Assembly (NCBI GenBank): GCA_950295325.1
Contig: OX485803.1
Span: forward strand, 37,401,554 to 37,465,553
DNA length: 64,000 nucleotides
Reading direction: 5' to 3'
Source: Polytrichum commune
Lineage: Eukaryota; Streptophyta; Polytrichopsida; Polytrichales; Polytrichaceae
A program made the position numbers and the translations under genes. Position 1 is the stretch's first letter, and each line of letters opens with the position of its first letter. The notes beneath the pieces are model-generated. The model did not search any database, had not been told where the DNA came from, and was given only the letters and a program-made list of their open reading frames with translations. Below, piece by piece: positions 1 to 29,803 of the stretch.

Positions 1-482
1 CCTTGACCACATCATCTCTTAACAAATGTTGTATGTGGAGCCGTTGTTCGTAGGTCTCTAAGGTTGGATTATTCTTATATCTTGATCCTTCGTGTGTGTT
101 GTGATGGTGGCATGCAAACTCCATCCATTTATAGCCCTAATACACAAATAACCATCCGTATTCGTCAACAAACCATGAAGCATGCTTGATGAAGACATGT
201 TATTGGACATATCCAAGAACAAATTTATTATTTACAAAACTAAGAATTTGATATTAGTCTAGAAATACATAGGTAGAGAATATAACTACCATGTCAAGTA
301 AGGTGAGTCTTTGAATAATGAACAAGGAATACAAAGTTTAGGTTGTGATAAAAGTTACCGAGTCGTGAGTCACGTGGTGTTCACCAAATAATTTTACAAG
401 TAGTTGTCCAAATTTGTCTGCCCTTCTTTTGAAAGCAAAATGTAATTATAGCTTCAAGGTTAGTCTTGCAAGGGTAAGGAAG
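1..482. other. Intergenic, AT-rich, nothing recognised
   Basis: No coding signal, RNA gene or clear repeat boundary is visible. The end of this stretch runs into the left arm of an inverted repeat at 483. Confidence 0.5.
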
Positions 483-627
483 CAATGGATGAGTGGTGGC
501 ATGAACGGAGGAGATCAGGGGAGGAGGGTTACATCGGTCAAATCCGACGGTCCAAAAAACACATGCAATGTGGCCTCACCAGAAGCCAGAAGTTGCTTTC
601 ATCGCCCATAGACTTCTTCTCGATAAT
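483..627 (+). repeat. Left arm of a ~145-bp inverted repeat
   Basis: The segment reads from GCAATGGATGAGTGGTGGCA to GACTTCTTCTCGATAA. Its reverse complement recurs at about 1411-1557 with scattered substitutions. Both arms translate to similar peptides (WMSGG.NGGDQGRRVT), but neither is a convincing gene. The similarity is by eye. Confidence 0.75.
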
Positions 628-730
628 CACTCTAAAGTTGTCCAACAAACCATATGGTCATGCCAATTAGCCCCATATGTTGATGTAGCTCTCTCAGCCA
701 ATATTACATTTTGCCACACCCGATCACAAC

Positions 731-1345
731 CTCAGGGAGGTCACTAATGAAAATCTTAGAAACAACATGCGATTAAAAAAAAAGGTCTAATATATTCATT
801 GTAGACTTTTTTTGCAAAAAAACATACATATAATATAGGGGGTTTTAGAATAATGAAACATGTTTACATGTAAAATACCACCACATATAATGGCCTCTTT
901 TATCTAGTCAGTACATGTAAAATAGAGTGGAAATAATTAATAGGGGTGGCGGGTCTAGGGTAGGGTTTGTGCTTGTGGATGAAAATAAGTAATTTTATGT
1001 TGAAAAAGTTTGGATGGATGACTTGGCATGTTGGCTAGCTTGAACATTACTAAACCAACGTATTGAATGTGGAGTTAATGTTCTCTACCTATTTCATCGC
1101 GTTGTTTGAATGGCAATCTTCTTTCCAATTTTCTTTGGTAGTTTAAGTAAAATAGGGTATATTAAAATAATTCCCCAAAAATTTATAATTATTGATAGGG
1201 TGTATTAAAATACAAGCATCTACCTTTATTTGGAAGAATATCATACCTTATAATCTTTTCTACAAGGTAAATAGCCCCCCCAAAAAATAAATAGGTCATG
1301 AGCGCACGTGTATACATTAATAAAAGAGGGAGTGACCTCCATGAG
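731..1345. mobile_element. TIR element with 8-bp target duplication (CACGGGGAGGTCACT family), no ORF
   Basis: The left end reads CTCAGGGAGGTCACT. The right end, reverse-complemented, reads CTCATGGAGGTCACT. The element is flanked by a perfect 8-bp direct repeat, ATCACAAC, at 723-730 and 1346-1353. The ends match those of the elements at 6489-6898 and 19376-20873, and a subterminal CGCACGTG-type motif is shared. Eight-base duplications are known for hAT and P superfamilies; which one applies is inference. No transposase is encoded, so this copy is non-autonomous. Confidence 0.85.
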
Positions 1346-1410
1346 ATCACAACTTATGGGAAGATGTGATTTTTGAAAAAGTTTCACAATTTTGGCACCG
1401 TTCAATGAAG

Positions 1411-1557
1411 GTTTATCGAGAAGAAGTCTATAGGCGATGAAAGCAGCTTCTGGGGTCTAGTGAGGCCACGTTGCCTGTGCTTTCTTGACCATCGGATTTG
1501 ACAAATGTAACCCTCCTCCCCTGATCTCCTCCGTTCCTGCCACCACTCATCCACTGC
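1411..1557 (-). repeat. Right arm of the ~145-bp inverted repeat
   Basis: This is the reverse complement of 483-627. The two arms bracket the TIR element at 731-1345, so either a larger fold-back element was later invaded, or two copies of one repeat lie in opposite orientation. Confidence 0.75.
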
Positions 1558-1639
1558 ATTGGGCACATTGTTGGATGGACATGCGTTATCACAAGTTGGA
1601 AATTCAAGAAATGTTTAGAATTTAGGATCGCAGACAACT

Positions 1640-2745
1640 TGTTTGTTGATGATTCAAATAGAGGAACTCAATTAGATGAATCAAATAAGATAGAACTTTG
1701 TTGTTGTTGATACATGTTTGATAATATTTACCTGATAACTCCGCATCCTCAAACATCTTAACAACTCCACCATGCATGCTTGTGGAGGATAACATATACT
1801 CTCAATGTTTTCAATCGCCGATTTCTGCACCCCTTTGTCTTGTATTGTCCAAACACATTGAAAGTGTACATTTACCATTTCCTCACAAACTATGTTTAGA
1901 GCATGCAAGGTACATATATGAACATTGTCATTACAAAAGAATAAATGCCAACATTGGCTAAGGAATTATCACAACTTACAGTAGGGGCTGGTGGCTATAG
2001 GATACAACTTTCCTACCAAGTAACTCACATTTCATTTGCCAAGTCACTTACATCACAATACAATGCTCGTACACGGCCGTTAGGAACCGAACCCTAGCCA
2101 CTTAACATGTGACACTAACCCTCACATACAATGAACCATTGAGAAGTTCTATGACTCGGCAACCACCTCGCAAAAAAAGTGATCATATACCCCTACAACA
2201 CCACAACCACACTAACCCCACCGATACAAGGATCATCCAATCGCTCAGTTTTCATGGTCACTATGGTTACCTTGGTTACTGTAGTGCCCACCCCGAGAGG
2301 GGTTAGTAGTCATGCACCACTAATATTATGTCCAATGGACATAATATCAAGGGTGGGTCGAACAAGCATTTCAATCACGTTGATCCCACTAAGGTCAACA
2401 TTTCTTCTCTCTAAACCTTGTCTAATGAAGTATTCCATATATCTAAATGAATTCATTCCCAACTTCTCTACATGGACGATTTCGGCCTCATCCATCTTTA
2501 ATACGAAGATGAGAGGTGAACCGTGTAGTTATGGTAAACAATAAACGAAAATTAGAATAACTTGCCTTAGAAGTAGAAAAATCCTTGATCACCACATGCA
2601 ATTGCAAATCTCCAATTGAATTTAACAGTCCACCCTTTTCATAATTTTGCATCGAGTCGTGAACTTGAAGACAGTAGCAATTTAAGAATGTACCCTTCAT
2701 AAGATTCTTTCAACGCTTATAATATGAAGTGTTCAATCCTATTGC
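1640..2745. other. Intergenic, nothing recognised
   Basis: Short ORFs of 61-121 codons exist on both strands, but none shows a family motif or a codon pattern that sets it apart. No repeat boundary was found. Confidence 0.4.
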
Positions 2746-3510
2746 CAATGTCCAGGTCATTTTTGGCACAAGTGGTCAAGATCCTAGTGCTTCCAAATCC
2801 AACTAGTTGCAAGTTGACATTCTTAGGGCCACTTCACACACGAGCCAAGGGCCGTGACCATGAGATTGTGAGAGCCCAAAAGAAAGTGTCCAAAGGCCGT
2901 CCCAACACATCTCCAAAATCACGTAGTGTGGTCATGGACCCTCAAGTGTAGTGTGAAGTCATATGTGACTGGGCCTCAACCAAATGTTATTTCAATGAAT
3001 TTTTTATTCATGCGGGTCCTCACACATGATAAAATAGAATAAACCAACGGTTGTGAGCGTTAGGAGTGCCATGGTCTCCCAGTTTTGTTTTAGGCCTACC
3101 TCCAAGAGTTAGGTGGCTTTTGAAAATAGTCCAAGTGACCGTGAAACATGATCCATTCGGTGCCATGTAGGAATCCATGTAGACTTTACATCCATCTTGC
3201 ATTCACATACTCCGTTAGTCCCTCGAGCGTACTGTGAAGCGAACTTGGACCGGCTCCGTCCTTTCCACCAATGAGAGTGCTTGGAGTGTAATGGTCACGG
3301 GCTCTTAGTCCTGTGTGTGAAGTGGCCCTTAGTCATTCTTTATTAATTTGAGGTGTATTTTAGAAATTTCTTCTAAAATGTTCAATAATTTTCTTGAAGT
3401 CTGGAACACCAACCAGTGATTTCTCAAACTCAACCGGTTCGTTTGTAACGAGTGGCCCGTTCTCCGTGTTCATTGACTATTGCTAAACCTCCAAATCTAA
3501 GATCCTAGGG
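2745..3510 (+). repeat. Older dispersed repeat split by a MITE
   Basis: The flanks (GATCCTAGTGCTTCCAAATC near 2780, then CTCAACCGGTTCGTTTGTAA near 3430) recur together near 20880-21060 and 31870-31990. In those copies they are not interrupted by the MITE at 2824-3331. The repeat is therefore older than that insertion. Its own ends were not resolved. Confidence 0.55.
2824..3331 (+). mobile_element. Mutator-like MITE, copy 1
   Basis: It has terminal inverted repeats of about 40 bp: the left starts TAGGGCCACTTCACACACGA and the right ends GTGTGTGAAGTGGCCCTTA. The flanks carry an imperfect 8-bp duplication, GACATTCT (2816-2823) and GTCATTCT (3332-3339). About 505 bp long, it has two further copies at 3514-4010 and 18013-18515. 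Long TIRs with an 8-10 bp duplication suggest a Mutator-like (MULE) non-autonomous element. No transposase is present. Confidence 0.8.
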
Positions 3511-3513
3511 CCA

Positions 3514-4010
3514 AGGGCCACTTCACACACATGAGACTGAGAGCCCGTGACCATTACACTTCAAGCACGAGTCTCATTGGTGGAAAAGGTGGAGCTTCAC
3601 ACTAAGCTTGAGGGACCAATCGGAGTATGTGAATGTAAGATGGATGTCAAGTCTGGATGGATTTCTACATGGCATCGAATGGATCATGTTTCATGGTCAC
3701 TTGGACTATTCTCAAAAATCACCTCTTGAAGGTAGGCCTCACACAAAACCATCGAGAGACCATGGCACTCAAAACGCTCACAACCGTTGGTTTATTCTAT
3801 TTTTTCATGTGCGAGGACCCACGTGAACAGAAAATTCATTGAAATAGCATTTGACTAAGAGCCCAGTCACATATGACTTCACACCACACTTGAGGGCCCG
3901 TGACCACAGTAGATGATTTTGGAGGTGGCTTGGGATGGCCTTTGGACACTTTCTTTTGGGCTCTCACAATTTCATGGTCACGGCCCTTGGCTCGTGTGTG
4001 AAGTGACCCT
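3514..4010 (-). mobile_element. Mutator-like MITE, copy 2 (reverse orientation)
   Basis: This is the reverse complement of copy 1 with about the same length and the same ends (AGGGCCACTTCACACACATG / CTCGTGTGTGAAGTGACCCT). It is bracketed by a 25-bp direct repeat, 3485-3509 and 4011-4035, beginning AAACCTCCAAATCTAAGATC, which is far longer than a usual MULE target duplication. Four bases (GCCA) lie between the left repeat and the element. Confidence 0.8.
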
Positions 4011-4127
4011 AAACCTCCAAATCTAAGATCCTAGGACTAGTTCTGTTACGCGGGCATGATTCTTAACTACAAACTTGTATACAATATACCTTCATGAGTG
4101 AAATTATGTAAAGTGAACCATGGTCCT

Positions 4128-4529
4128 CTAGACAACCTTAACATCCAATAACACATTGTTGAAGTTGTCCAATTGTAAAATTTTGTACTTCAATTTCAAG
4201 CTTTCATTGTTGCATCGGACCTCATAGGTACTATTGAGAAACAATGGATTCCCAACTAAATCTTCACATTGATTATGGACTAATTTCCTCAACCGAAGTA
4301 CTTGACAAGGGTTTGGTAGGCGCCCTAAGTGGAGACCTCTTCCAACTTGTTTGATACCACCTTTGAACTTCTTGTATAACTTGTTGAAGTCATTTAAAGA
4401 GATACCGCTTTCGTCATGAACTTGTAGCACTTCATGGGGACTAATTGCGTGACCAACTTTCTCCAAGTTCATGTTGGCCATTTGAATCCCAACCCGTGTC
4501 ATAGTAGGCACTTTGAGCAACAATTGCAC
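4128..4529 (-). CDS. Unidentified 133-codon ORF
   Basis: This is an open frame of 133 codons with a fairly ordinary amino-acid mix (many Lys, Leu, Asn, Val). I recognise no motif, signal peptide or membrane segment. It follows closely on a MITE and has no visible introns or neighbours that hint at a role. It may be an exon of a mobile gene or chance; treat it as hypothetical. Confidence 0.15.
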   Translation of the reverse strand: MQLLLKVPTMTRVGIQMANMNLEKVGHAISPHEVLQVHDESGISLNDFNKLYKKFKGGIKQVGRGLHLGRLPNPCQVLRLRKLVHNQCEDLVGNPLFLNSTYEVRCNNESLKLKYKILQLDNFNNVLLDVKVV

Positions 4530-6480
4530 TTTTGTTGGCTCTGTCTGTAGGGGACAGACTATGCATCAACTTCTATGTTTCAAGAGCAAATTTGCTAACC
4601 AGTTTGCGTTCACGCTTGGACATTACTTGTTCATGCTTATTTTTTTGTCCAATTTATTTAATGTGGACGTTAGCTATAGTTATATATATTTAGTTAACCG
4701 TAGTTGCTCCCTAAACTGTATTGAAAAAAATCTAGTTAACTATAGTTATTTTGTTAGTTTTTAATTATTGATTTAAAAAAATTTGAGTGATAAATGAGTA
4801 GCTTCAATCCTTGACCCGCATTTGAGAAGAAGGTGCACAAAATCCAAGAAAGGTTTGGTTATAAGTATAATAAGTAGCCATGGATTGGCATAAACAAAGT
4901 GGACAGGTACAGTCGTAGTCTTTCACAAGAAAGGACAAAGCCTCACGGTTCTGCTGTTTTCTTGTTTGGGATAGAATGAAAACCCAAAAGAAATTGCCAA
5001 TTTCAACTTGATCGATCGGTCTTGCTTCCACATCATCGCTCGTGTGTTGCAACTTGAGGCATACTCCTCTTGGATTCTTCTTCGCGTAACTTAGTTGTTG
5101 GTGCCAACACGATGCAAGCTAAATGGCATGTGGGCCTTTGCATGGCCACAATTTAGATAGATTGCGTTGTTGTCTAGTTTGACTACGGTGGCGAAATGGA
5201 GTTTTCCTTAAGATTGTTGAGCCTCCCTTGCACTTTTGGCAATTCGTAATTGGCTACGTTGAGACCAGAGTTCGGGAAGTTTTTGAAGCCTTAGTGGCTA
5301 ATTGCCGGTAGTTGCTACGAAGGGTCGGATTTTTCCCAATTTACATTGGCAAGAGCCGGTCTTTTGTAAAATCAATTGGCCAATTGCCTATATTTTCATA
5401 TTTTCATTGGCCAATATCCGATTAAATGGAATTCATATGAGCACTAATTGTTTAAAAAATGTATGAAAAGTTATTAGAAATGATTTCTTAGTACAAAATC
5501 TTGAATCAGTGAAAAGAAAGGCATGTTCAAAACTTTAAATTTGAAGAGTTAATATCCTTGGCAAGAATTGAACCTAGCAATGCCTTCACCGCTTGAAGGC
5601 CAAGGGTCCCCCAATTCTTCATAGAAGCAATTGGATTTGGTCATGGGTCAAAAAGTTGAAGGTTTAGGGTACTTCCTCAAGTGCATCATTAGATGCCCCA
5701 GACAAATAGCGCTCTGGATGCTTCCGGTTGAAATCCAGTAACTCACAAGAAGAATCGGCTACATTTTCTGGTCCATCGGCTAATTGCCGGAGGATTGAAA
5801 TTACAGTCGGATTGCCATCCGATGGTTGGAAATTTGAACCGGCCATGAGGGGAAATCCATCGGATGATAATGAACCAGCCGTCGGTTTTCCCCGAACATA
5901 GGTTGAGACTTGCAACAAGAGCATTCTATTCCTCTTTGTGCAATATTCCCATTTTTCTCATGTTGTTATGCTCCTACAAGTCAACCAACCGAGATTCCAA
6001 TTCTTCTCTATTGGTAATTTCGGCAACAAGATTTTGTGTTCGGATATCGTACTTGCTTTGCATCGTACACATCCCGTTTTGTAAGGAAGTTGGCTATCTT
6101 CTCAAATTTTTTAACTGAATTTCAAATTCCATCGCATCATGACTCGAGCGATGGATATGTTTGTCAATGCCATCTTGCAATCATAATATTATTAAGATCC
6201 ATAATAGTGTTATGTGGGATCAACAATATTCCAAGAATATTCACGGATATTTTCCACATTCCGTATGAATAATGTTATGATATTGTAATCTCAAATTTTT
6301 GATAAAAAAAACACAAAAGTTGATGTTCCTCCCGACAGAGTTTCCAGAAGTTTGATGAAACTAAGAAGACCATTCTCTCCATTGCCAACAAACTCAAGCG
6401 ACTGACTCGGGGATTCTAATTTCGGTTGTTTACCGCTACAAGGATGAATTGGATAAACTATCTGACCACAAATCCAAGTT
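4530..6480. other. Intergenic, nothing recognised
   Basis: AT-rich stretches alternate with short sequences rich in GGCCAATTG/CGGCTAATTGCC words (about 5230-5420 and 5755-5790), which may be remnants of a repeat. No ORF has a recognisable family signature. Confidence 0.4.
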
Positions 6481-6488
6481 TCCAAAAT

Positions 6489-6898
6489 CACGGGGAGGTC
6501 ACTTCATTGTCAAGTTGACACCACGTGCGGACAAAGTTTGCTACCCCTATATTACATGCCATATATAATTTTAAAATTTATGGTATGTTCTCTACATATA
6601 CATAACCATTGATAGTATCTTTTGTATACTTTTTTTTAAAAAAATAGTCATCTTTATTTTTTTTAGTAATTGTTTTAGTTCAATTTTGTGTCATTCTAGT
6701 TAGAAATGGTATGTTTTATGAAAAAAACAAATCATCAAATTTAGTTACCACTTTTGACTATGTCATAGGTACTGTGTATATCTACTCATGAAAAAAATTG
6801 ATAAAATTTTGACCCATTTTGGTGGTGCAACTTACCAAAAGAAGATTTTTTTTGGTCGCACGTGGTGTTCAACTTGACAATGGAGTGATCTACCCGTG
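6489..6898. mobile_element. TIR element with perfect 8-bp target duplication, 410 bp
   Basis: The left end CACGGGGAGGTCACTTCATT is mirrored at the right end (AATGGAGTGATCTACCCGTG), with about 42 bp of inverted repeat including CACCACGTGCGG. The direct repeat TCCAAAAT flanks it at 6481-6488 and 6899-6906. The interior is AT-rich with no ORF. The ends are the same as those of 731-1345 and 19376-20873. Confidence 0.9.
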
Positions 6899-7148
6899 TC
6901 CAAAATGAGCACTGCTAAGTTGATTTGAAGCGACATCCTCAAATGATCATGGGTTTATATTTGGGAGCAATCCATGCTTGAACTTTGTGCAAACCCTCTG
7001 ATTTTTGTAGCATTTTCTATCACCATCTCTAATGACAACAATAGCAAAGACAAAACATGTTGAAAATACGATGAACAATAGCTCCAAAGCTTCGACATGC
7101 TGGACAAAAAACCGGACCAAGAAGGTTGACAAGATTCCCACGTAGATA

Positions 7149-7626
7149 CAGTCCACCCTCTATAAATGTTAGGCTCTGGAGTAAAATTTTCCTAACATTT
7201 ATAGTGAGTTAACATTGTAACAGTTATGAAGGGAGCTTTTTGAATGCTTAACAAATATAAATTCATTACAATTATGGAGGGAGAGTTTTGCAAAATTATC
7301 ATATATAAAATATGTGTATCAAATCAATCTTTTATTTTTATGAAACAGAATAAGAATCAATATAGTCCAAATGAATAATTTGATCACAAAAGTCAAATTT
7401 GGTGGCTTTTGCCACTTTGAGTCAATGTAATGGATGTCATCACACAATATTGGATGTATTTCGTAGGTTAACATTTATAAGTGGCAAATTAACAAAGAGG
7501 GGAGTAAATTATTGTTAACATTTAACATAGTTAACATTCTAGTTAGCAATATGAGGGGAGTACGATTTTGTTAACAAATATAATGAGTTAACGTTTATAA
7601 GTGTAACATTTATCGAGGGTGGACTG
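7149..7626. mobile_element. mariner/Stowaway-type MITE with TA duplication
   Basis: The left end CAGTCCACCCTCTATAAATG and the reverse complement of the right end (CAGTCCACCCTCGATAAATG) form TIRs of at least 23 bp. The dinucleotide TA flanks both sides (7147-7148, 7627-7628). The form CAG...CCTC.ATAAAT resembles plant mariner-like TIRs. It is 478 bp, AT-rich and has no transposase. Confidence 0.85.
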
Positions 7627-7955
7627 TATGTTGGTGTGTACAAGATTCCTGCCTACATCAATCATAAGCTTAGTTGCAATTCAATCACAAACACTTGTTC
7701 AAAATCATGCTTGTTCCCGCTTACCAAACCCAAATTGCTTTGTCACGAGTCTCTATTTTGAATCATGTTCTAACTTCTTCGTTGAAGTAACTTTCCCAAA
7801 GCCCCAATATTCATATGATGGTTACGGGGCCATATTCGAGTGTGCTTATTATGTAAAGATCATCATGTAATGGGGGTGTAGGTTAGTGGTTGTGGTATTG
7901 GTGGGAATGGTATTAAGGGGTTTCCACTAAGTTGTTGATATATTTACTTTGTAGT

Positions 7956-23898: not shown

Positions 23899-24173
23899 AG
23901 TTTCCATTAAAATGAGAGTATGTTAAGCTGGGAAATCGACTCATTTAGGTCGACTCAACCTAAATTGACAACATATTGTCCTCATTTAGGTCGACTCAAC
24001 CTAAATTGACAAAATATTGTCCTCATTTAGGTCAACTCAACCTAAATTGACAAAATATTGTCCTCATTTAGGTCAACTCAACCTAAATTGATAAAATATT
24101 GTCCTCATTTAGGTTGACTCAACCAAAATGAGTCGATTTCCCAGCTTAACATACTCTCATTTTAATGGAAACT
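23899..24173. mobile_element. Foldback element: 48-bp perfect arms around 41-bp tandem repeats
   Basis: The left arm 23899-23946 starts AGTTTCCATTAAAATGAGAG. The right arm 24126-24173 is its exact reverse complement over 48 bp. Between them lie four 41-bp units starting at about 23939, 23980, 24021 and 24062, plus a 22-bp partial fifth; the unit contains CTCATTTAGGT, GACTCAACCTAAATTGA and AATATTGT. Part of the first unit overlaps the arm. Each unit itself holds a small inverted pair (TTTAGGT / ACCTAAA). No clear target duplication and no ORF. Confidence 0.9.
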
Positions 24174-25599: not shown

Positions 25600-25826
25600 C
25601 GATTGGAAAACCTCTGTTTGAGTGGTACATAGTTAAGTGTGGATCTAAGAACTGACACCAATAGACACGCGTTTAAAGGAAGTTGGACTACACGCTCAAA
25701 TTTAACTAACTATGTTAGACTCAATAGTTGACATGAATGAGAAGGGGGGGGGGGGCTATATGACCACTTAATGAGCACAAAAATCTTCACTTTGATGACG
25801 AACAAGACATTCATATGAACTCCAAA
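25600..25826 (+). repeat. Dispersed repeat family R, copy A (left part, split by the LINE)
   Basis: It contains the family words GATCTAAGAAC, GACACCAA, TTGGACTACACGCTCAAA and CTCAATAGTTGACATGAATG. It continues after the LINE at 28978-29110 (CATGAGGAAAGAGACTACAA, GATTTGGGATTTGCTT). Other copies are near 37.8, 38.3, 49.9, 50.9, 54.9 and 63.5 kb. A G12 run sits at 25744-25755. Confidence 0.75.
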
Positions 25827-27374
25827 CTACAATCCCAAAAATACCTAGACAAACTCTATACATATGGCATAACCACTCTATCACAAATCTTAAACAAAAC
25901 TAATACATCCATCCTTACCCCCGAAGAATTCTGCATCACATACAAAAACGCACCCAAAACCATTAAGGCGGCACTACAACAAGCACAAATACTATTTCCT
26001 CAACCACAACAACCCGCACCCCAAACAACACCCCAAACAACACAACACCCGACACAAACCACCGACCCCAACCTAAACCCAATACTTGGGAACGCCATAC
26101 ATAAAATCATTAAAGAAAAAACTATCACAAGAAAGGATAAATGGGGAGCACAAGCCATCAAAACAACATACTTATGCCAATGGCAGACCACGAACAACAC
26201 CACACATCAATGGCGCACAGAAGAAGACTTACTCCACCCGGACAACATATTCTTAAACCATAACCTATTAACCATCACACAATACCACACCGCAACCACA
26301 ACACAAAACACCACTAACACATATGCCAATTACCTTACCAATACCCAAACAAAAGACACTAAGTTTATACATCCACCACTAACAATCACCAACCTCACCC
26401 TAAACATTCATGAATGTAACCCCGACAAAGATATCATAACCAACAAACCGTCCATAACAACACACGCATTAGGAGCAAATATATATGACCAAAAAGGAAA
26501 CTACATAGCTACCCTTACCCTCGAAAGGTTACATTGGCTATGGAACCAATTCTCTCACAACACCCTTCAACACCTCACTAACTTCCTACAACCACCACCA
26601 CAAGATTTTAAAACAGAAATCCTATGGCTCCTTCAAAGATACATAACTATACTCCCCAGGAAAAAGCCAAAAACTATCCAACCAAACAACCTACACCAAA
26701 CACTACCCCCCGAAATCACCAAAACACTCATAGAATCCTTCCAAATTACACACTCATACTACTCATCCCCCCTCACTTGCCCTACCCAACTCACCCAATA
26801 TAACTCCCCACACACTCGAGACATACTATTTGGATCAATAGGCAAAGCAAATTCGGCCAAATGGACAGGGCATGGACTAGTGTTTCCCACGGACCACAAT
26901 ACAACCCTCGAAGCCCTCCACTGGGCTAGAATGGCCGCTAAAGAGGATGCACAAACAATCACTATCCTAATAATAAACCACAAGGATTGGACACCACAAC
27001 AAATTCCACTCACAAACCCGGACATACACATCCTAGCCACAATCCCACCACACACTATAACATACAACCCCACGCCAGAATGGCCAAAATACTACCAATA
27101 CACCGAACCATCCCTTACATCAATCATATGCGTACACAACCAAAGAACCATACTAAATAACACCCATATACCAACCGCATTACAAAGAATACTCAAAAAC
27201 ACTACACATACACACATAGACATCCACCCCATTAAACCCACACCCACACATTACGAAGTTAAATTCTCTAACGCATGGAAAAATGCCCCTAAAACTACCC
27301 CCCCCCCCCCCCCAAACCATAAACACCCACATAATTCCCCTACCAAGCACATTCACAAACACATACCCCCTTAA
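25815..27374 (+). CDS. LINE polyprotein, upstream frame: connector plus PCIF1-like methyltransferase-like region
   Basis: This is an open frame of 519 codons, but its ATG lies in the target-site duplication, so the natural protein begins further upstream and was lost. Residues about 8-55 resemble the connector that follows the reverse transcriptase in many LINEs (LYTYGITTLSQILNK). Residues about 115-140 (YLCQWQTTNNTTHQWRTEEDL) faintly resemble a chromodomain. Residues about 310-440 resemble PCIF1-type RNA N6-adenine methyltransferases: FGSIGK at 339-344, W-rich strands, ILATIPPHTITYNP and a closing SIICVHNQ. The family's NPPF catalytic motif is not intact; VFPTD sits roughly there. Activity is therefore doubtful, and the assignment is a reading by eye. 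The frame ends in proline-rich sequence read out of frame past the C16 run. Confidence 0.6.
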   Translation: MNSKLQSQKYLDKLYTYGITTLSQILNKTNTSILTPEEFCITYKNAPKTIKAALQQAQILFPQPQQPAPQTTPQTTQHPTQTTDPNLNPILGNAIHKIIKEKTITRKDKWGAQAIKTTYLCQWQTTNNTTHQWRTEEDLLHPDNIFLNHNLLTITQYHTATTTQNTTNTYANYLTNTQTKDTKFIHPPLTITNLTLNIHECNPDKDIITNKPSITTHALGANIYDQKGNYIATLTLERLHWLWNQFSHNTLQHLTNFLQPPPQDFKTEILWLLQRYITILPRKKPKTIQPNNLHQTLPPEITKTLIESFQITHSYYSSPLTCPTQLTQYNSPHTRDILFGSIGKANSAKWTGHGLVFPTDHNTTLEALHWARMAAKEDAQTITILIINHKDWTPQQIPLTNPDIHILATIPPHTITYNPTPEWPKYYQYTEPSLTSIICVHNQRTILNNTHIPTALQRILKNTTHTHIDIHPIKPTPTHYEVKFSNAWKNAPKTTPPPPPNHKHPHNSPTKHIHKHIPP

Positions 27375-28824
27375 ATTCCACCCACAACAGTGCACATATA
27401 CGGATGGATCATTCACCCCCCCGACCAAAAACTCCGAAGGCCAAATAGAAGGAAACACTGCAGGATCGGGAGTATATAGCCCTAACAACAACACAAAAAT
27501 CTCAGAAAGACTACCAGGCTACCAAAACATACTTAGAGCCGAACTCAATGCAATTCTCATTGCCGTTAAAAATATACAACTCACTAAAATAGACACACAC
27601 ATATTTACAGATAGCCTTAACAACATATATCTAATTAACAACCACATCCACCGCCCAACATCACAACACCACCACCCAGACAAATTACTCATAGCAGCAA
27701 TAGTACGACATATATACTGGACCCCACACAAAATACACATACATAAAGTACGGGCTCATACAGGCATCACCGGAAATGAAATAGCAGATGCACTAGCAAA
27801 CGAAGGAACTACCAAAGAAAAACCGAATACCACCCCACGTATACACACTGCCCACTCGACCCCATACTGGCTAGCAAGCTGCCCAACAGCCACACACGAC
27901 GGAGCCATCCGTAACTTACGTACATTCATAACCAAAGAACACAAAACAAATGAAGCAGGACTAGCCAAACATAAATTCCCATACGTAGACAAATGGCTAT
28001 CCAATACCCAAATAAACCAAAAACTCTCCAACCATTTTTGGCAAGACGAGAAAATCCCGGATACCCAAATCACCCAAACACTCAAATTCAGATACGCCCA
28101 ATATATGGGTAACCACAGGAAAAACATATTTTGGCCTATCACACACCCAAACCCCAATTGCACGCTATGCCATAAAAATGAACGTGACACATGGCCTCAC
28201 CTACTATCCACATGTGAGCACCCATTCCTTAAAGGACTTAGAATTGCACGACACAACAAAGCAGTACATCTCATCGCCCAAACATTACAAGCCAACAAAA
28301 ATACCAGATTCTTTACACTAACAAACGCAGGTCACTTTAATAACCAACCACAAGAACAAACAGTACCGGAATGGCTGCTCCAATGCACTTGCCACCCAAA
28401 CCCATGCCAATGCCTCGCCAAACTAAGACCGGACATCCTATGCATACTCGGAGCACCAAAACAAATACAACCACCTATATCACCCTCTCCCGAACATATG
28501 ATCCAATTCATTGAATTCACATACTGCCATGATAGATTCCCAGAACAAGCCATCACACACAAACATGCCAAATATGACCCACTAAATAACATCATCCAAA
28601 ACAATGGTTGGAAAACCAACCCCCTCATAACCATCACGGCAGGAGTAAGAGGAGCCATACACGAACAGTCCATTGAAAATCTCACAAAAATAAACATCCC
28701 AAAATCAAATATCAAAAAATTGATGAAAGAAATACACCAAAACGCCATCAAATACCTTACCTACTTAGTACTAAATAAAAGAAAACTAGACAACAAACAA
28801 CAACCCGTACCCCCTCCTAATTAA
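27283..28824 (+). CDS. LINE polyprotein, downstream frame: RNase H, CCHC knuckle, restriction-like endonuclease-like end
   Basis: Frame of 513 codons, one base out of step with the upstream frame; the ATG given is only the first in frame, and translation would have to pass the C16 run. RNase H residues are all visible: D41 in YTDGSF, E87 in RAELNAIL, D110 in IFTDSLNNI, and H159 and D169 in VRAHTGITGNEIADALA. Then follow a C-x2-C-x9-H-x4-C knuckle (CTLCHKNERDTWPHLLSTC) and, close after it, an ARHN motif. This order is known from LINEs that use a restriction-like endonuclease. The C-terminus has LRPDILCI and MIQFIEFTYCHD, which could supply the PD...E/D catalytic pair. It ends with a lysine/asparagine-rich helix. 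This arrangement differs from the usual plant L1 (AP endonuclease) LINE. Confidence 0.75.
   Translation: MPLKLPPPPPQTINTHIIPLPSTFTNTYPLKFHPQQCTYTDGSFTPPTKNSEGQIEGNTAGSGVYSPNNNTKISERLPGYQNILRAELNAILIAVKNIQLTKIDTHIFTDSLNNIYLINNHIHRPTSQHHHPDKLLIAAIVRHIYWTPHKIHIHKVRAHTGITGNEIADALANEGTTKEKPNTTPRIHTAHSTPYWLASCPTATHDGAIRNLRTFITKEHKTNEAGLAKHKFPYVDKWLSNTQINQKLSNHFWQDEKIPDTQITQTLKFRYAQYMGNHRKNIFWPITHPNPNCTLCHKNERDTWPHLLSTCEHPFLKGLRIARHNKAVHLIAQTLQANKNTRFFTLTNAGHFNNQPQEQTVPEWLLQCTCHPNPCQCLAKLRPDILCILGAPKQIQPPISPSPEHMIQFIEFTYCHDRFPEQAITHKHAKYDPLNNIIQNNGWKTNPLITITAGVRGAIHEQSIENLTKINIPKSNIKKLMKEIHQNAIKYLTYLVLNKRKLDNKQQPVPPPN
27298..27313 (+). repeat. C16 homopolymer at the frame junction
   Basis: Sixteen C residues lie between the two halves of the LINE polyprotein. 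The upstream frame before it and the downstream frame after it differ by one base, so C15 (or C18) would make the reading continuous. It could be a replication-slippage mutation, an assembly or sequencing length error, or a programmed slip site. Confidence 0.9.
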
Positions 28825-28857
28825 AGATAGCTTGTTGTATTAAAACCCTAGAGCCCA

Positions 28858-28958
28858 CCTCCCCACAGGAGGCATAAAACCATACACTGCATCATGGAAT
28901 ACCGTGATCAGTGCATGGCTAACGGGCTCGCATTCACGCTGGTATCATATACTAGCGT
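28858..28958 (+). other. Two potential 3'-tail RNA hairpins of the LINE
   Basis: Hairpin 1: CCTCC(CCACA)GGAGG at 28858-28872. Hairpin 2: ACGCTGGTA-TCATA-TACTAGCGT at 28936-28958, nine pairs including one G-U. Between them GCTAACGGGCTC is conserved with the second copy. In many LINEs the reverse transcriptase recognises such a 3' structure; that role here is inference. Confidence 0.6.
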
Positions 28959-28977
28959 TACTTTTTCTTTTCTTTTC

Positions 28978-29110
28978 TGAACTCCAAAAATCATGAGGAA
29001 AGAGACTACAACTTGGATTTGGGATTTGCTTCCCATCTCGTACTATCGCATGTGTGGAATCCTAGGAGAAGTGGGCTAGTTGGAAAAGTAGCCATTCAAG
29101 GGTTGTTTGC
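28978..29110 (+). repeat. Dispersed repeat family R, copy A (right part)
   Basis: This continues the repeat interrupted at 25826. It matches 37790-37905 and 38826-38945, where the same sequence is uninterrupted. Confidence 0.7.
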
Positions 29111-29336
29111 CCTATACTTGAAATGCTAGACACATGTTACTCACTTGCTTCATCGATTCAATCAAGCTAGCTAGGGTTTTAAGAATATTAATTTTCTGAC
29201 TGCATATTTATGTTGCAGACACAAGAATGAGTCAAATCACAAACATGAATCAGCATGTCTGGCTTATTTTTTTAAAGTATTCAGAGCAACTTGAACTTGC
29301 AATTTCTGTCACTGTATCTTATTTGGGAGCATGTTT

Positions 29337-29714
29337 CAATACCTTGCGAAATAATGGATGGCAAACCAACCCCCTTATTACCATCACAACAAGAGTTAGA
29401 GGCGCCATACATGAACATTCCATTAATAAGCTCATCAACTTAAAAATCCCAAAACCGGTCATTAAGATCCTCATGAAAAACATACACCAGAATGTCATCA
29501 AATACCTCACATATCTCATTCTAAACAAAAGAAAACTCGAAAGTACCCCCCCATATAATATAATGGAAACAAAAGAAAAACCCAAGCCCACCTCTCAAGA
29601 GGCATAGCACCTATGATGCTGCATCATGGACATCCGCGATGAGCATTAGGCTAACGGGCTCACATTCACGCCGGTACCTTGCTATGGGCGCTACTTTTTC
29701 TTTTTCTTTTCTTA
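29337..29714 (+). mobile_element. Second, severely 5'-truncated copy of the same LINE family
   Basis: It is flanked by an 11-bp duplication, GGAGCATGTTT, at 29326-29336 and 29715-29725. It holds only the last ~70 codons (NNGWQTNPLITITTRVRGAI, ending NKRKLE) and the 3' tail, both similar to the copy ending at 28977. The open frame at 29227-29607 begins in host DNA and only its second half is LINE. Tail hairpins: CCTCT/AGAGG at 29591-29602 and ACGCCGGTA/TATGGGCGC at 29668-29691. Confidence 0.9.
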
Positions 29715-29803
29715 GGAGCATGTTTTTATGGAGAATATATTGAATGGTCATGTTAGTGTGGGCATAGTAAATCCCTACAATTTACATAATGAGGATAGAT
29801 AAA

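Follow-up and report, generated by a model that had tools for sequence, protein, structure and literature searches.

Among retrotransposons that lack long terminal repeats (LTRs), the long interspersed elements (LINEs), the pairing of an APE-type (apurinic/apyrimidinic) endonuclease with a restriction-like endonuclease (RLE) is described as the mark of the Dualen/RandI type (PMC4640811, PMC3636483). Methyltransferases have also been reported in retroelements, as Dam-like domains in DIRS and as DNMTs in LINE, DIRS and Gypsy elements (PMC5890265), and 2A-like peptides are already known in non-LTR retrotransposons (PMC4981915). Here we analyze a LINE copy in a 64,000-nucleotide stretch of the Polytrichum commune genome (contig OX485803.1, positions 37,401,554 to 37,465,553 of the forward strand; “the window”, whose numbering is used below). 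The copy occupies positions 25827-28977, and its features are all on the plus strand. It is very probably the truncated copy of a non-LTR retrotransposon that is abundant and has expanded recently, and whose second open reading frame (ORF2) encodes, in order, a 2A-like peptide, APE, reverse transcriptase (RT), a chromodomain-like fold, a fold like that of the RNA methyltransferase PCIF1/CAPAM, RNase H, a CCHC zinc knuckle and RLE.

The original prediction, made from the letters of the window, had pointed to the resemblance of the upstream block to PCIF1, and a sequence profile and the fold both bear this out. The block, a catalytically degenerate PCIF1/CAPAM fold whose structural match lies within the outer limits 26397-27206, scored against the Pfam family PF12237 (PCIF1_WW) in the first reading frame with E = 8.4e-8 and 32.4 bits, above the cut-off of 31.1. 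The same family was matched in all 18 members of an alignment (A1) that spans two subfamilies, with the window sequence 37-40% identical across subfamilies. The name PCIF1_WW is described as a misnomer, PF12237 being the methyltransferase and not the WW domain (PMC7641849). No WW family was found among the Pfam matches, at E up to 1, of three long ORFs.

Structure prediction pointed to the same protein. Two AlphaFold models were built from A1 and a second alignment (A2, described below): model 1, of the block with the chromodomain-like part (401 residues, mean pLDDT 56.7), and model 2 (285 residues, pLDDT 59.6, pTM 0.58). For both, the six top Foldseek matches were the six PCIF1 entries (6irv-6irz and 6is0). 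With model 2 the E-values for PCIF1 were 1.1e-8 to 3.1e-6 and that of the next match was 1.3e-2, while VIA-align gave Z-scores of 11.7-12.1 for PCIF1 and 9.6 for the next fold, RlmJ, which is likewise an N6-adenine RNA methyltransferase. In the superpositions of model on PCIF1, 195-227 of 467-494 residues were aligned at 4.4-5.8 Å rmsd, over a PCIF1 range that started between residues 188 and 436 and ended at 668 or 673. The match is therefore chiefly to the C-terminal half of PCIF1, where its methyltransferase core lies, and leaves the rest of PCIF1 unaccounted for.

To place the copy among its relatives we searched the host genome (407.8 Mb in 64 contigs). On its contig C8 lies a RuBisCO large subunit beside a frame that resembles accD, in keeping with a land plant. 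A PF12237 profile search scored 150 candidates out of 697 at first look (candidate counts are rough), and all 150 exceeded the family cut-off, the longest frame among them having 2,924 codons; the top score among the matches listed was 55.6 bits. No PF12237 match was found in any of 14 control genomes. Together with the fold matches, in which PCIF1 ranked first, these results led us to reject a chance profile match. When the window block itself was the query, the best 106 of 2,920 candidates were scored and comprised the window, 18 places at 85-98% protein identity (some of them partial) and 87 at 59-74%. The RLE query gave matches at 89-100% identity (best 149 of 5,520 candidates). Recent expansion is indicated by numerous RLE matches with a protein identity of 98-100%, by three open frames of 2,625 codons and by a group of five loci (L020-L024) that are mutually 98.1-99.2% identical in DNA over 1,173 compared bases. 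Searches able to detect close relatives only gave two pattern stretches in viral contigs and 21 in genome contigs covering viruses and prokaryotes, none of which was confirmed, and a 20-mer genome search from a guessed back-translation gave no match. An exon-by-exon search that scored the best candidates turned up no host gene for a cellular PCIF1, although by its design it leaves the absence of such a gene unproven.

The catalytic NPPF motif of PCIF1, whose disruption is reported to reduce PCIF1 activity (PMC6318281), is replaced by FPTD in the window (26883-26894, from the alignment of copies); likewise YAHPHN of L017 lines up with EANPPF of PCIF1 in a single-sequence alignment against the Protein Data Bank (PDB). 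To follow the motif we took 108 loci, made up of 79 of the 150 PF12237 places and 29 of the 106 window-query places, the window included and the duplicates L002 and L019 dropped. Their 117 domain matches yielded 109 rows with filled motif columns, from 107 loci (L088 had none). NPPF occurred in none of the 109 rows (107 of 108 loci), although this sample is smaller than the whole family and a lineage bearing NPPF could lie outside it. HPHN (46 rows), FPTD (22) and HPHT (17) were the commonest forms and the rest were rarer. Position 1 was H in 79 rows, F in 23, Y in 5, P in 2 and N in none, and position 2 was P in 106. The five top PF12237 scores belonged to HPPN, HPHN and HPHT copies. The observation that NPPF is not intact thus extends to the copies read and is not mere decay of the window copy.

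The surroundings of the motif behaved differently. In a second alignment (A2) of 46 sequences, the window plus the 45 of 102 open copies left after clustering at 93%, motif positions 1, 3 and 4 were variable while SSPxTC, FGSxG and GxG.A.P were conserved, with S119, C124, F141, G142 and G145 invariant in all 46. In the window these include SSPLTC (26763-26780), which aligns with ASPLNC of PCIF1, and the FGSxG loop (26829-26843), which aligns with FGSRG. A helix with the pattern HWAR..A beside the core loops was also conserved among the four stretches of A2 inspected.

The PCIF1-like block is under purifying selection at values near those of RT, RNase H and RLE. Using the Nei-Gojobori method between long copies, we obtained dN/dS of 0.05-0.09 for the core within the set L017, L018 and L029, and of 0.15 for L016/L028 (dS 1.95) and L025/L027. 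For like pairs the ratio was 0.04-0.07 in RT, 0.04-0.14 in RNase H, 0.06-0.19 in RLE and 0.03-0.29 in the chromodomain-like part, and the linker after the block was looser (0.20-0.70). Pairs with infinite dS yield no ratio, and the near-identical L025 and L026 differ by too few changes. Ratios of 0.05-0.15 within subfamilies, and the same motif replacement in long open copies, led us to reject decay of a dead copy.

Longer copies supplied the part of the element that the window copy has lost. The ORF2 frames of L016, L017 and L018 are 2,919, 2,924 and 2,625 codons long, and Pfam found RVT_1, RNase H and PCIF1_WW in all three, so that RT does lie upstream in longer copies, as had been proposed for checking. 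The solved structures nearest to this RT were R2 (1.1e-29) and then LINE-1 (1.8e-16) by PDB search. The APE family Exo_endo_phos (PF03372) was matched in L016 (1.3e-5, 25.5 bits against a cut-off of 24.5); the APE region is 48-99% identical between copies, and its ExoIII-like PDB match had E = 0.19. Five further loci (L025-L029) show the identical motif order in one or two long frames, with the long frame of L025 ending before RLE. A relaxed 2A-like motif, D(V/I)xxNPGP, lies upstream of RT, and before APE where this was located, in all eight long copies, and the strict form D(V/I)ExNPGP in three of them (L016, L018 and L029). The L025 ORF at 430-7656 carries a pair of 2A-like motifs separated by about 150 residues. 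A separate ORF1 was seen on the minus strand at L018:8717-10000; it has at least 428 codons, is cut by the edge of the sequence taken at that locus and matched no Pfam family.

Searches with RT and RLE queries, which reached one subfamily well, gave 86 RT matches, 73 paired with a downstream RLE and 13 unpaired. The RT-to-RLE spacing was 3,700-3,800 nucleotides in 66 of the 73 pairs, shorter in three (3,459-3,641) and longer in four, which suggests that the insert is usually present. None of the 73 pairs, with their minimum of 3,459, was short enough for loss of an insert of about 1.2 kb.

Upstream of the PCIF1-like block lies a chromodomain-like fold of three strands and a C-terminal helix (26073-26333), recognised in the model, by VIA and by PDB profile. 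The corresponding N-terminal part of model 1 (residues 11-80) is confident, with blocks at pLDDT 72-87. It superposed on the Rhino chromodomain 4u68 with Z 6.9 and rmsd 2.2 over 63 residues, and on 3mts with Z 6.5 and rmsd 1.7 over 57 residues; a VIA Z under 8 can reflect a common arrangement. Seven of nine PDB profile matches were chromodomains of the CDY family (E 0.03-0.14), and Pfam Chromo matches occurred in 9 of the 18 A1 members, with a best E of 0.012.

What might a methyltransferase fold without its catalytic motif do in a LINE? Since the PCIF1 core loops (SSPxTC, FGSxG and GxG.A.P) are kept while the N and the F of NPPF are lost, binding without methylation would be expected. Tentatively, and at somewhat less than even odds, we suggest that the block is a pseudo-methyltransferase: it would bind the end or a nucleotide of an RNA but leave it unmethylated. 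The element's own RNA would in this way be held close to RT and RNase H, perhaps through its capped 5' end or through a nucleotide that is flipped out, and a cis preference could arise through such an RNA-binding block. The adjoining chromodomain-like fold may tether the complex to chromatin. METTL14 is an inactive RNA-binding scaffold for METTL3, and by analogy the block might play a comparable part. It could be speculated further, although we think it unlikely, that the dead CAPAM fold clamps the element's own mRNA at its m7G-capped first nucleotide. RT and RNase H would then act on full-length self-encoded templates while the chromodomain-like fold would direct the complex to chromatin, and the transposon, if this is true, would encode a reader of mRNA 5' ends. 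The anatomy, the conservation and the absence of the motif are observed in the copies read; to the explanation as a whole, LINE anatomy together with a non-catalytic binding block, we assign a probability of about 50%.

Several results weigh against this explanation. Confidence in both models is low (mean pLDDT 56.7 and 59.6), and matches to PCIF1 in the PDB by sequence alone are weak (E = 0.033 with a single sequence and 0.00015 with the A2 profile). APE reached Pfam in just one of three long ORFs, and no solved RLE structure was matched statistically in single-sequence or profile PDB searches. Pfam Chromo scored 14.1 bits in the window, below its cut-off of 25.1. By eye, the methyl-lysine aromatic cage is not clearly kept: there is one W in the YLCQW strand of A1, and the other positions are inconsistently aromatic. 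Between subfamilies, in the most distant pair (L017/L027), the core dN/dS rises to as much as 0.26 with dS above 2, compared to 0.39 in the chromodomain-like part and 0.24-0.25 in RNase H and RLE. Conservation is also equally expected from a merely structural role.

That role, a purely structural or dimerisation module acting without a ligand as a stable spacer that fixes where RNase H and RLE lie with respect to RT, is in our judgment somewhat unlikely. It accords with the near-constant RT-to-RLE spacing (66 of 73) and with the variation among H, F and Y at motif position 1, and would explain the conserved HWAR..A helix as well, but among the four stretches inspected, those that align with the PCIF1 core loops hold invariant or nearly invariant residues. 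Alternatively, the block could still be an adenine methyltransferase that uses HPHN or FPTD as a non-canonical motif to mark element RNA or cDNA. The retained fold and core loops, and the methyltransferases carried by other retroelements (PMC5890265), would suit this idea. However, NPPF is found in no row, N at position 1 in 0 of 109, and the residue there can be H, F, Y or P, which is not how a catalytic residue behaves; in PCIF1, moreover, disrupting NPPF lowers activity (PMC6318281). Active methylation was therefore dropped as the first choice, and we regard it as quite improbable. Self-methylation is unlikely because open copies also lack NPPF, so the earlier suggestion that the element marks its own RNA or DNA is not supported.

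Slightly less probable still is a domain that binds SAM or SAH, senses methylation state and switches retrotransposition: conservation of the loops aligned with the PCIF1 core would fit, and the change from ASPLNC of PCIF1 to SSPxTC here (N to T) would not. Convergence, by which another Rossmann-type domain merely resembles PCIF1, draws on the low model confidence and on how common middling Z-scores are; it is already disfavoured, and very improbable, given that the curated PF12237 cut-off was exceeded in 150 of 150 scored matches and that two methods agreed in putting the six PCIF1 entries at the top, the next fold being lower by about 2 in Z. We return to the non-catalytic binding block. The other reading offered in the original prediction, reuse of the fold for binding, is favoured by loss of the motif with the loops kept, and binding itself is our inference. 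The prediction was thus right in what it observed and in part of its interpretation (PCIF1 likeness, RT and NPPF loss, not self-marking). It had not seen the 5' truncation, the APE and RT upstream in longer copies, the chromodomain-like fold or the structured 3' untranslated region (UTR).

The limits of the inserted copy can be read from the letters of the window. The 11-bp sequence TGAACTCCAAA stands at both flanks, at 25816-25826 (5' copy) and 28978-28988 (3' copy; neither is assigned a strand), and is a target-site duplication. Because it abuts both ends, the inserted copy is exactly 25827-28977, the interval first proposed. This 5'-truncated copy is covered by two overlapping frames (25764-27374 and 27220-28824 in the ORF list of the window). 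They represent a single coding region, since the one break falls where 16 C stand in a row (27298-27313) and the relatives L020 and L022 are open across their entire 1,391-codon loci. Target-primed reverse transcription is established for LINEs, and the target-site duplication, 5' truncation, RT and endonucleases together point to the same process for the present element.

Downstream of the PCIF1-like block, RNase H (27391-27807) matched PF00075 in the second frame with E = 8.7e-16, and the D, E, D, H and D residues noted earlier can be read in YTDGSF...RAELNA...FTDSLN...VRAHTG...EIADALA. The CCHC knuckle, C-x2-C-x9-H-x4-C, is at 28159-28215 (letters and alignment of copies) and reads CTLCHKNERDTWPHLLSTC, with the ARHN that had been reported to follow it. 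With x9, its spacing exceeds by one residue the pattern published for RLE LINEs, CX2-3CX7-8HX4C (PMC5678591). The putative RLE (PD...E...K..KY, 28426-28821) is recognised by its motif, with PD, E, K and KY unchanged in eight of eight copies; the residue before PD is R or K, and the terminal RPD...IEF of the prediction is found in the window as RPDILC...QFIEFTY. In PDB searches the 356-residue C-terminus of L018 gave no match, and all that the RLE profile reached was the knuckle of R2 with its RHN region (E = 0.77).

The copy ends in a structured 3' UTR (28851-28961), a junction with two hairpins followed by a terminal hairpin, and a pyrimidine-rich tail (28961-28977). The closing stem, the two hairpins and the terminal hairpin are common to the window copy, a neighbouring fragment and L025-L027, with single-sequence fold z-scores of -8.1 (window), -2.8 (fragment), -8.2 (L025) and -6.5 (L027). 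In the other subfamily the arrangement is analogous but the letters differ (z = -3.2, -3.3, -3.8 and -5.3), and the tails are CTAT or CTT. Analogous 3' UTRs lie at L025:8375-8486, L027:8079-8189, L016:9678-9798, L017:9558-9678, L018:400-520 and L028:8133-8254. In both divergent subfamilies the terminal hairpin is near ATTCACGCCGG and is followed by a pyrimidine or CTAT tail. In the window no match came up to the threshold of any Rfam family. The neighbouring fragment, at 29337-29714, is a second copy, of a related element, likewise truncated at the 5' end but far shorter; it retains the RLE end, 3' UTR and tail and is flanked by GGAGCATGTTT at 29326-29336 and 29715-29725. On the other side, at about 23900-24170, is a small inverted-repeat element, resembling a miniature inverted-repeat transposable element, with TTTCCATTAAAATGAGAGTATGTTAAGCTGGGAAATCGACTCATTT common to its arms and tandem units between them.

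Should this anatomy prove correct, a chromodomain-like fold and the fold of an RNA cap methyltransferase have been captured by one retrotransposon lineage, in which the methyltransferase fold is maintained by purifying selection although the catalytic motif is gone. Such a natural and abundant pseudo-enzyme would be suited to the study of how a LINE protein recognises its own RNA (cis preference, full-length insertion). It would also be a PCIF1 homolog outside the known cellular role, and censuses of m6Am writers based on PF12237 would be misled by such elements. No element with a PCIF1 domain was found among the matches listed from titles and abstract openings of the open-access literature. 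PCIF1-like proteins in mobile elements may, however, have been discussed by Iyer et al. in 2016 (BioEssays, on eukaryotic adenine methylation), who would then have priority. The PCIF1 fold within a LINE is apparently a new combination, methyltransferases in retroelements and chromodomains in LTR elements being already known.

Compared to PCIF1/CAPAM, the block agrees in exceeding the PF12237 cut-off, in its best fold match by two methods and in the SSPxxC and FGSxG loops. On the other hand, it differs in the replacement of NPPF in 109 rows, in the lack of a WW domain by Pfam, in its LINE polyprotein context and in the partial alignment. Dualen elements carry a cysteine protease; in the present element no peptidase family was seen by Pfam at E up to 1 in five frames, a search that a divergent protease could escape. 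The presence of both APE and a putative RLE with RT and RNase H resembles Dualen/RandI as described (PMC4640811, PMC3636483), and the 3' tails, microsatellite-like in their letters, are similar to the ones given for RandI (PMC3747384). We therefore call the element Dualen-like, a label that would follow from the endonuclease pair and not from an RT tree. Compared with that plan it seems to have two additional modules, the chromodomain-like fold and the PCIF1-like fold, which stand after RT and before RNase H.

SymbioLINE-Dnmt and certain DIRS and Gypsy elements are likewise retroelements with a methyltransferase-fold domain described as under purifying selection, but theirs are cytosine DNMTs or Dam-like, whereas here the fold is that of a degenerate PCIF1 RNA methyltransferase (PMC5890265). 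Capture of a chromodomain by a retroelement is described for Chronos and Chromovirus, which are Ty3/Gypsy LTR elements, while the present element is a LINE (PMC5348765). Finally, the eTudor-DCD-CAPAM fusions described in choanoflagellates also join a CAPAM-like domain to reader domains; those are cellular proteins, whereas the present block resides in a mobile element (PMC7641849).

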